From: Desulfobacteraceae bacterium
GTDB lineage: Bacteria; Desulfobacterota; Desulfobacteria; Desulfobacterales; Desulfosarcinaceae
DNA: 64,000 bases
Direction: 5' to 3'
NCBI GenBank assembly: GCA_013003715.1
Contig: JABDIN010000065.1
Coordinates: forward strand, 62,001-126,000
The notes under the pieces are model-generated. The model had not been told where the DNA came from. It ran no database searches and worked only from the letters and a program-made list of their open reading frames with translations. Shown here in pieces: positions 55,269 to 57,998 of the stretch. Both the position numbers and the translations under genes were made by a program. Position 1 is the first letter of the stretch, and each line of letters opens with the position of its first letter.

Positions 55269-55745
55269 ATGCTTACTGAGTTGGAAGAAAAGATAGTCGC
55301 ATCGATTCAAGAGGATATGCCCATCGTCCACCGGCCGTACCTGGTCCTTGCCCGGCAGATAGGTGTCACTGAAGCGCAATACCTGGAAACCCTGCAATCT
55401 CTTTGCGACCGCGGGGTGATACGCCGGTTCGGGGTCACCATCCGTCACCAGAAGTCCGGATTCGGCGCCAATGCCATGACCGCATGGATCGTGGATGAGG
55501 ATCGCATCGAAACCGTCGGTGAAATCATGGCGTCATTCGTCGAAGTGTCTCATTGTTACCGGCGGAATCCCACCGGATCCTGGCCGTATAATCTTTACAC
55601 CATGATCCATGGCACCGATGAGGCCGACTGTATCGAAACCGCCGGAAAAATGTCCGAAAAAGCCGATGTCCGGACGTATCAATTGCTGTTCAGTCGGCGT
55701 GAACTGAAAAAGACTTCCATGAAATATTATCCGGACGCCATTTAG
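55269..55745 (+). CDS. Siroheme decarboxylase subunit (AhbA/AhbB, Lrp/AsnC fold)
   Basis: 158 residues. An AsnC-type helix-turn-helix region (residues about 5-60) is followed by the ligand-binding RAM-like domain with RRFGVTIRHQKSGFGANAMTAWIVDE and the diagnostic HCYRRNPTGSWPYNLYTMIHG block (about 93-113). This block is characteristic of siroheme decarboxylases, which remove two acetate carboxyls from siroheme on the alternative heme pathway of sulfate reducers. Usually AhbA and AhbB act as a pair; the partner is not in the window. The stop codon TAG forms the left end of a MITE-like repeat. Which subunit it is cannot be told. Confidence 0.85.
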   Translation: MLTELEEKIVASIQEDMPIVHRPYLVLARQIGVTEAQYLETLQSLCDRGVIRRFGVTIRHQKSGFGANAMTAWIVDEDRIETVGEIMASFVEVSHCYRRNPTGSWPYNLYTMIHGTDEADCIETAGKMSEKADVRTYQLLFSRRELKKTSMKYYPDAI

Positions 55746-55887
55746 TGTCCATCCATAAATGGCATCTTGCGGCTCATATCTGCGTTCTCGCGTTTTAGAA
55801 ATACTCGACGTAAGCCCATTACGACTGCGTTTTCTAAAACACTGCGGCCTTGATCTGGACCACAAGCTACCATCTCTGGATGGACAC
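55745..55887. repeat. MITE-like element with 11-bp terminal inverted repeats
   Basis: A 143-base stretch bounded by GTGTCCATCCA (55745-55755) and TGGATGGACAC (55877-55887), perfect complements. The inner arms also pair imperfectly along nearly the whole length, with a second pair TTTTAGAAA / TTTCTAAAA, so it can fold into one long hairpin. No coding capacity. The left end sits inside the stop codon of the siroheme decarboxylase gene. The flanks share the bases CATTT, a possible short target duplication. Confidence 0.78.
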
Positions 55888-55951
55888 CATTTGATATGCC
55901 GGAACTGTTTGTCCACTGACCTTCCGGCCAATCGGGTTAGGAGATCGTCCC

Positions 55952-57295
55952 CTGTCACGGCGCGATAAACTGCACATTCTGTTAGTCAATCCCTGGATTC
56001 ATGATTTCGCTGCGTATGATTTCTGGGCCAGGCCGCTTGGGTTATTGTCCCTGGGGGGATGGCTCGAGGCCCACGGCCTTCGTGTGTCCTATGTGGATTG
56101 TCTGGACCGTTTTCATCCCAACGCGCCACCGGTTGATCCGCTGAAACGCCACGGACGGGGGCCGTATCGAAAAACACCCATACCGAAACCGTCCGGTCTG
56201 GCGGAAGTGCCCCGGAATTTCTCCCGGTACGGCATTCTACCGGAATGGTTTGAATCCGATCTGATGCGCCTCGATGCTCCGGATCTGATTCTGGTCACCT
56301 CCATGATGACTTATTGGTACACCGGCGTGAAGGAGACCATCACGATGCTGCGTGGGGTTTTCGGCGATACCCCCATCGTCCTGGGCGGAATTTATGCGAG
56401 TCTCTGCCGTGAGCACGCACATCACCAGATGCCGGTGGATGATATCATTTCCGGTCCGGGAGAACCGGTGTTGCCGGACCTCTTACATCGGCACACCGGT
56501 CTCCGGCTGAACCCGAAGTTTTCGGCGTACGATCCGGATTCATGGCCCTTTCCGGCCTTCCATCTCCAGCGGACGATCAATTTCATCCCCCTGCTCACCA
56601 CCCGGGGCTGCCCGTATGCCTGTACCTATTGTGCATCATCATTTCTGAATGAAAAATGGTGGCGCCGGAAACCGGAAGGCGTTGTGGAGGAAATTCTGTA
56701 TTGGCACGCGGAACACAGGGTGCGGGACTTTGTATTGTATGATGATGCCCTGCTGACCGACGCCCGGCATCATATCGTCCCCATCCTGGAGGCCGTGATC
56801 CGGCGCGGGATCACGGTTCGGTTCCACACGCCGAATGCCGTCCATCTCCGGGAGATCACCCCCCGGGTGGCGCAACTGATGTTTGATGCCGGATTCAAGA
56901 CACTCCGGCTGGGGTTGGAAACCACTGCCTTTGAAACGCGCAATCGAATGGATCGAAAGGTCACTGAAGGGGAGTTCACGGCTGCAGTGCAATATTTAAT
57001 GCACGCCGGGTTCAGGACGGATCAGGTCGGCGCATATCTGCTGGCCGGGCTTCCCGGCCAGACCCCCGAAGCGGTGGAAGCGTCCATTGCCATGGTGAAA
57101 ACGACCGGCATCACCCCCGTCATTGCCCACTATACGCCTATCCCCCATACCGCCATGTGGCCTGAAGCGGTGGCTGCTTCCCCATATGATCTGGAGAACG
57201 AGCCCCTGTTTACCAACAATGCGCTGTTTCCCTGCCGGCGGGAAGGATTCTCATGGGACACCCTGGCACGGTTCAAACAATTGATAGCCGGATGA
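55952..57295 (+). CDS. B12-binding-type radical SAM protein with apparent CTG start
   Basis: About 447 residues from CTG 55952. The coding N-terminus (DKLHILLVNPW, then a B12-binding-like region to about residue 140 with IVLGGIYASL) continues upstream of any ATG, GTG or TTG in the frame. The only TTG (56045) would delete the conserved HILLVNPW and Rossmann start. AGGAG at 55939-55943 lies 8 bases before CTG 55952, ideal for initiation there. The radical SAM core has GCPYACTYCASSF (C-x3-C-x2-C, about 203), and later LGLETT and AYLLAGLPGQTPE. Substrate unknown. The MITE-like repeat ends 64 bases upstream. Confidence 0.8.
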   Translation: MSRRDKLHILLVNPWIHDFAAYDFWARPLGLLSLGGWLEAHGLRVSYVDCLDRFHPNAPPVDPLKRHGRGPYRKTPIPKPSGLAEVPRNFSRYGILPEWFESDLMRLDAPDLILVTSMMTYWYTGVKETITMLRGVFGDTPIVLGGIYASLCREHAHHQMPVDDIISGPGEPVLPDLLHRHTGLRLNPKFSAYDPDSWPFPAFHLQRTINFIPLLTTRGCPYACTYCASSFLNEKWWRRKPEGVVEEILYWHAEHRVRDFVLYDDALLTDARHHIVPILEAVIRRGITVRFHTPNAVHLREITPRVAQLMFDAGFKTLRLGLETTAFETRNRMDRKVTEGEFTAAVQYLMHAGFRTDQVGAYLLAGLPGQTPEAVEASIAMVKTTGITPVIAHYTPIPHTAMWPEAVAASPYDLENEPLFTNNALFPCRREGFSWDTLARFKQLIAG

Positions 57296-57931: not shown

Positions 57932-57949
57932 TAGTGTTCATCCATAAAT
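57932..57949. repeat. Short remnant of the MITE-like repeat end
   Basis: TAGTGTTCATCCATAAAT differs by one base from the left end of the element at 55743-55760 (TAGTGTCCATCCATAAAT). The matching right end is not found nearby, so this is a truncated copy. Confidence 0.5.
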
Positions 57950-57998
57950 ACGACTTTTGTGTATATATCCGCCGGAGCAACAATACAGGGAGACCGTG

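Follow-up and report, generated by a model that had tools for sequence, protein, structure and literature searches.

A 143-bp MITE at the 3' end of ahbB and its superfamily of elements with a shared hairpin core and probably exchanged ends

Results

The locus at the 3' end of ahbB

The window analysed here is a stretch of 64,000 nucleotides from a Desulfobacteraceae bacterium (contig JABDIN010000065.1 of assembly GCA_013003715.1, positions 62,001 to 126,000), and all positions below refer to it. The open reading frame at 55269-55745 encodes AhbB, identified with model NF040707 at 183.8 bits against a cut-off of 125, and is directly followed by an imperfect palindrome of 143 bp (Table 1). The next gene rightward encodes a B12/radical-SAM protein (56045-57295). 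The original prediction had placed here a hairpin element with 11-bp perfect terminal inverted repeats (TIRs) that begins within the stop codon of the siroheme decarboxylase gene, at the G of TAG, and both its coordinates and the palindrome were confirmed. The TIRs read GTGTCCATCCA / TGGATGGACAC, and the inverted-repeat arms cover 36 nt each (55745-55780 and 55852-55887) with 78% complementarity. Folding gave z = -5.78 with RNA parameters; with DNA parameters the values were -4.68 for the + strand and -7.80 for the - strand, and in each of the three cases none of 200 shuffles was equally low.

The flanks had been described as sharing CATTT. This repeat is present; however, it is better read as an imperfect 6-bp duplication, CATTTA/CATTTG (5/6), because the duplication length of the family is 6 bp (see below). 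The element had also been credited with supplying part of the stop context of ahbB. This is true of the present sequence, in which TA comes from the target and G is base 1 of the element. However, when the insert was removed and either copy of the duplication was kept, the reconstructed empty site still encoded an AhbB of 158 aa, with TAA or TGA as the stop codon. As for a truncated end reported 2 kb away, the end at 57934 is real, but it is a lone class I end (GTGTTCATCCATAAAT; end classes are defined below), and a different short repeat (CGACTTTTGTGTATATATCCGCCGGAGCAACAATAC) follows it within 57934-57990. Elsewhere in the source genome, the latter repeat is found again at 82-86% (L035, L056, L033), and the 57934-57990 repeats lie just upstream of the start of a gene for a beta-helix-like protein (weak Pfam match).

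That the hairpin lies directly 3' of the ahbB stop codon would suit a terminator or attenuator of ahbB, i.e. a conserved and immobile structural feature of the locus. However, no T-tract was found 3' of the hairpin (after 55887), and the element does not have the G+C-rich hairpin plus T run on the gene strand that characterizes intrinsic terminators. Furthermore, the same sequence is present at unrelated loci with duplications of its own, and the family has no orientation bias (both below). A conserved terminator of this locus is therefore a practically negligible explanation.

Table 1. Features of the ahbB locus in the window
Feature	Position	Strand	Remark
ahbB, siroheme decarboxylase subunit beta, 158 aa	55269..55745	+	NF040707
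Left target-site duplication CATTTA	55739..55744	.	6-bp length taken from family statistics
143-bp non-autonomous element, class I end type, full length	55745..55887	+	model R1, 137.1 bits, positions 1-142 of 142
Left terminal inverted repeat GTGTCCATCCA	55745..55755	+	11 bp, perfect
Conserved hairpin core, also in elements with other ends	55772..55860	+	about model positions 28-115
Core motif A, first copy (CTGCGTT)	55780..55786	+	outer asymmetric internal loop
Core motif B, first copy (ACTCGA here; family CCTCGA)	55803..55808	+	inner internal loop
Core motif A, second copy (ACTGCGTT here; family CCTGCGGT)	55824..55831	+	inner internal loop
Core motif B, second copy (CCTTGA)	55848..55853	+	outer internal loop
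Right terminal inverted repeat	55877..55887	-	same sequence as left repeat, on - strand
Right target-site duplication CATTTG	55888..55893	.	5/6 identical to left
Lone class I end GTGTTCATCCATAAAT	57934..57949	+	without partner end nearby

Copies, target-site duplications and spread

The source genome (G000) contains six full-length 143-bp copies at 94-100% identity, the window copy included; the five further copies, at 94-98%, came from the genome search that the original prediction had suggested. Besides these, there are a 142-bp relative with 71% identity, split copies of greater length and numerous fragments. Class I ends occurred 22 + 21 times in this genome (up to two mismatches), versus 0 + 2 times for the reversed pattern. 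At 124 end pairs from the retrieved loci, some of them spurious overlapping pairs, exact 6-bp duplications were found in 15 cases against 0.67 expected by flank swapping, and one-mismatch duplications in 27 against 4.66. The 6-bp duplications of the family are mostly TAnnTA.

Matches to the element at E ≤ 0.001 were obtained in 37 of 97 relatives. In Desulfobacteraceae bacterium CG2_30_51_40 (G097, evidently one genome with G198, as the contig coordinates are the same), 331 exact end decamers were counted, versus 2 for the reversed-pattern control; the prospect that no further copies exist is thereby removed. Within 148 kb of this genome there were 24 elements of exactly 142 bp, and the 23 with both flanks showed 14 exact and 6 one-mismatch 6-bp duplications. 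A scan of named genomes returned at least 120 matching stretches, and the 80 titles listed were nearly all those of Desulfobacteraceae, Desulfobacterales and Deltaproteobacteria MAGs, with a few outliers. Copy numbers are lower bounds, for at most eight candidates per genome were scored in the search of the 97 relatives and at most ten in the scan with covariance model R1 (see below). Length is nearly uniform: among 99 distinct elements of 130-156 bp, which form 26 clusters at 85% identity, 93 measured 141-143 bp. Sequence-similarity look-ups against records of plasmids and phages yielded no match.

These elements are short, lack a transposase gene, occur in several dispersed copies and have TIRs and a target duplication of fixed length, as bacterial MITEs do. 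Thus, the proposal of a non-autonomous transposable (MITE) family is borne out by further copies with their own 6-bp duplications at unrelated sites, and the evidence supports the window feature as a MITE and a member of a dispersed family of small transposable elements.

Other sizes were also seen. In the source genome, two forms of 191-192 bp (C3:58343-58534, loci L007/L013, and C42:15993-16183, locus L008) have an extra stretch of 49 bp; the 143-bp form may be a deletion of this form, or the 191-192-bp form may be an insertion. In another genome (G043), elements of 187-189 bp (L131, L124, L133) have as one of their ends a whole palindrome of 37-38 bp, bounded by two end repeats; their opposite end reads GTTTCCATCC.

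Palindromes of 22-47 bp, consisting of two ends and little else, were present in 23 of the 97 relatives, and the control matched none in any row. Among 49 palindromes of up to 60 bp, 7 had exact 6-bp duplications (0.33 expected) and 10 had one-mismatch duplications (1.65 expected). This excess, together with a 35-bp palindrome that occurs twice with identical interior at different sites in G000, could be taken to mean that these forms are independently mobile "minimal" elements. However, five of the seven tiny palindromes in G000 can be derived from a 143-bp copy by deletion, with 4-8 bp of junction homology, so that deletion after insertion accounts for them, and an element of only 22 bp could hardly be accommodated in a transposition complex that holds two ends. 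Independent mobility is therefore unlikely, and we read the tiny forms as in-place deletions after insertion. Several palindromes of 38 bp in G043, by contrast, resemble one end of the longer 187-189-bp elements.

A conserved hairpin core

From 96 sequences, one representative per 90% cluster was aligned. The 31 sequences thus obtained fold into a single hairpin of 44 pairs, and compensatory double changes were observed in 30 of these. Paired cells amounted to 89.9%, versus 74.1% in shuffled alignments (0 of 500 as high) and at most 48.9% when slid; there were 217 double-change cells versus 83.5 in the shuffles. The covariance model built from these 31 divergent copies (R1) matched 96 of 297 genomes of the phylum, and almost all the matches listed span the full length of the model.

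The conserved core is about 90 bp long, and its near-invariant runs sit in asymmetric internal loops. Averaged over all positions, the loops are no more conserved than the stems (1.07 versus 1.06 bits); loop conservation is concentrated in short runs at model positions 37-40, 57-61, 79-86 and 101-106. Two motifs recur, A (CTGCGTT, again as CCTGCGGTT) and B (CCTCGA, again as CCTTGA), and by our reading of the alignment A and B face each other on opposite strands of every loop, their order being mirrored. In 34 non-redundant cores, the first copies of A and B were found in 32 and 28, and the second copies in 26 (29 loosely) and 32, respectively. An integron-like GTTAGGC in some cores was also considered and dropped; by eye, this stretch varies between subfamilies.

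Strong covariation of stems and near-invariant loops are also what a transcribed RNA hairpin would show if it were kept for a host function, as an mRNA stabiliser, terminator or regulator, and the elements do often lie near gene ends (median distance to 3' ends 25 bp, 43 of 71 within 50 bp). However, their orientation was unbiased. In the 75 of 84 cases that were classified, 20 elements ran with and 21 against tandem genes, 15 lay between convergent and 19 between divergent genes, and element-free gaps had a similar gene arrangement (87 tandem, 29 divergent, 23 convergent). G-U pairs were also not in excess, with 82 G-U versus 121 A-C cells outside two G-U-rich columns (61 versus 69 in the core); with both columns included, the counts were 190 and 131 in this alignment, which was fitted to the model. 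No relevant Rfam family was matched at E ≤ 1, the one exception being an irrelevant plant microRNA at 0.68, and the window hairpin has no T-tract. An RNA function of the core is thus quite improbable. Because there is no orientation preference, no G-U excess and no relevant Rfam match, we infer that the core probably acts at the DNA level rather than as a strand-specific RNA.

End classes and their probable exchange

The ends of the elements fall into three classes, each with its own duplication length. In class I (GTGTCCATCC, GTG..CC) the duplication is 6 bp and was exact in 15 of 34 elements (0.88 expected), in class II (GAGACCTTTG) it is 5 bp and was exact in 8 of 22 (0.00 expected), and in class III (GGnnACCTTGAAAA) it is 4 bp and was exact in 11 of 25 (0.96 expected). 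These numbers cover the automatically classed elements with complete flanks; three class II rows with a misplaced right boundary (L427, L411, L424) were not counted as duplications. Other lengths from 3 to 8 bp gave at most three cases in any end class. Total length was 141-144 bp in all three classes.

The same cores were found with different ends, as is plain in genomes distant from the source. Between classes I and II, core identity reached 0.93 with a TIR identity of 0.44-0.53, and between classes I and III it reached 91%, whereas the mean core identity within class I was 0.63. Pairwise alignments that were not fitted to the model agree with this. For example, a class III element (L442) and a class I element (L165) align without gaps over 141 bp, with a nearly identical interior and both ends unlike. 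In fact, a single contig (L287) carries two 141-bp elements that are identical at 103 of 113 inner positions and at 7 of 14 and 7 of 14 outer positions, and each has its own 6-bp duplication. Alignment A2 comprised 106 elements, 83 of them classed automatically (35 I, 23 II, 25 III) and 20 by eye; two "other" elements and a doubtful one were left out of the core tree, which has 103 rows. On this tree, built from 88 columns only and with an unsettled bootstrap, the end class changed 11 times, compared with a least possible number of 2 and a shuffled mean of 45.9; the bootstrap range for class I was 10-12, and when well-supported branches alone are counted, the number of changes required falls to 5 for class I, 4 for class III and 2 for class II. 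These elements form a modular MITE superfamily across the phylum, in which the core is the same and the ends and duplication length have most likely been exchanged repeatedly.

Further end types were met singly, i.e. GAGTCTGTTG (L287), CAGGCTRCTGG (G012) and the GTAAAAAG type (L298, L095). The last belongs to palindromes matched by R1 at L298:1670-1814 and L095:3942-4070, which seem to represent another end class of the superfamily. In G012 (L415, 502-644) and G022 (L416), CAGGCTRCTGGCAAG ends were seen on a 143-bp element whose core resembles that of class I elements; copies of class I are present in G012 as well.

G is the first base of all three end types, which also have a common AAAA run at about positions 12-15, and the ends of classes II and III are alike in having ACCTT(T)GAAAAA. 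A single transposase family may therefore serve both class II and class III. These resemblances would also suit a single transposase family for all elements, whose ends and duplication length (4-6 bp) drifted together while the core was dragged along by descent. However, cores of different classes are closer to each other than most cores within class I, and pure drift by descent would not give the roughly 11 end-class changes on the core tree. In addition, the loops of the core stay asymmetric although the stems keep changing. Descent within one transposase family is therefore doubtful.

Search for a partner transposase

A transposase with the same terminal repeats was looked for and was not found. 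The models for IS1634 (NF033559) and ISNCY_2 (NF033594) were applied to 40 relatives each and revealed no partner, and the readable inverted ends around their matches (loci L181-L240) were all unlike those of the element; ISNCY was tried because its member ISDol1 presumably makes duplications of 6-7 bp. Convergent class I ends spaced 0.5-4 kb apart yielded only MITE pairs or chance sites in 903 kb of loci, and the outcome was alike in another set of 82 loci and in 148 kb of G097. Likewise, no partner was obtained by a DDE_Tnp_1 search in two genomes (G097, G000) or from convergent class Ib, II and III ends in 1.95 Mb, where one weak pair was seen. Six viral-contig matches to the class II end had, by eye, neither a partner end nor a transposase and are probably chance, and the core pattern had no match in viral contigs. 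A candidate autonomous element at L169 3421-5096 (also in L319) was rejected, as it contains two ordinary genes and no transposase. Its two half elements, both of the 3' type and facing inward, bracket genes which look ACT-domain-like and ketopantoate-reductase-like by eye; a composite or a chance arrangement is possible. MAG assemblies collapse multi-copy insertion sequences, so the failure to find a transposase is weak evidence.

Discussion

We consider it most likely, with a probability of roughly 0.8, that a MITE inserted at ahbB and that it comes from a phylum-wide superfamily with a kept core and exchanged ends and duplication lengths, moved most likely by several transposases. On this view, the GTGTCCATCC ends would have been recognised by a transposase that acted in trans and was probably of the DDE type. 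It would have placed the 143-bp element in a CATTTA-like site spanning the final codons of ahbB, with duplication of 6 bp and no change to the protein. Since it is the transposase that fixes the length of the duplication, the different lengths are most simply read to mean that elements sharing one core and a total length of about 142 bp are moved by several different transposases.

How ends might be exchanged is suggested by the hairpin. Recombination inside two cores would change one end, and copying of one arm onto the other across the hairpin could then repair the second end. The same arm copying would keep the stems complementary. Asymmetric loops survive such copying, which argues for selection on the loops. 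The core may thus be kept as a DNA structure or as a paired protein-binding site, with A and B twice each, that aids transposition or tolerance of the element. A bolder proposal, which we offer as tentative and on balance unlikely, is that the core and not the ends is the lasting genetic unit. It would be a structure-coded DNA module of about 142 bp with the A/B pair twice in mirrored loops, and would recruit available transposases by exchanging both TIRs via the hairpin. The module itself would be recognised by a factor conserved in the phylum and encoded either by the host or by an element.

In its behaviour the element matches bacterial MITEs and is classed with them, and ERIC, Correia/NEMIS and RUP are its closest counterparts. 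REP/RAYT palindromes have no target-site duplication and depend on a hairpin-guided TnpA_REP; membership in this group is ruled out by the fixed-length duplications of the present elements. ERIC/IRU/RU-1 and Correia/NEMIS occur in other organisms and presumably have other end sequences. In the part of the source consulted, ERIC/IRU/RU-1 of enterobacteria and Correia/NEMIS of Neisseria are, like the present elements, dispersed sequences of about 100-200 bp with TIRs, target duplications and a long imperfect hairpin, whose partner transposase is mostly unknown and which have longer and shorter forms (PMC2229807). However, each is described there with one end type, whereas here one core has several end types and duplication lengths (PMC2229807). 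RUP of Streptococcus pneumoniae (107 bp) is likewise a MITE with TIRs and many intergenic copies, but according to the same portion of that source its proposed partner is IS630-Spn1 and its target TA, unlike the 6-, 5- and 4-bp duplications and the lack of a found partner here (PMC2229807). Thiomargarita nelsonii, also a sulfur-cycle bacterium, has high-copy MITEs for which the authors of that study found no parental IS in ISfinder; these have 10-bp and TATAG direct repeats, and the sections consulted describe no exchange of core and ends as seen here (PMC4853749). In rice, mPing and mPong demonstrate, as far as the consulted excerpt goes, that the internal MITE sequence and not the TIR alone sets transposition efficiency, and that chimeric combinations of ends and interior can be tested (PMC9921582). 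These eukaryotic elements differ from ours in that no conserved hairpin core across end classes appears in that excerpt (PMC9921582).

Among the titles and abstracts listed, the literature on MITEs and repeats of bacteria, Desulfobacter and D. autotrophicum, deltaproteobacteria, sulfate reducers and Desulfobacterota, and on chimeric bacterial MITEs, contained no description of this family, and text matches to the end decamers were unrelated by title among the matches listed. To that extent undescribed, the repeat is present in many genomes of sulfate reducers and related bacteria, and a single genome may hold as many as about 165 copies, as estimated by halving the 331 ends. The usual explanation of MITEs is internal deletion of a single parent insertion sequence, to whose ends they are tied. 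If the present reading is true, a non-autonomous element can outlive its transposases and switch between them. Two questions would then become testable, namely which parts other than the ends a bacterial MITE requires, and by what route such elements pass from one mobilising enzyme to another.
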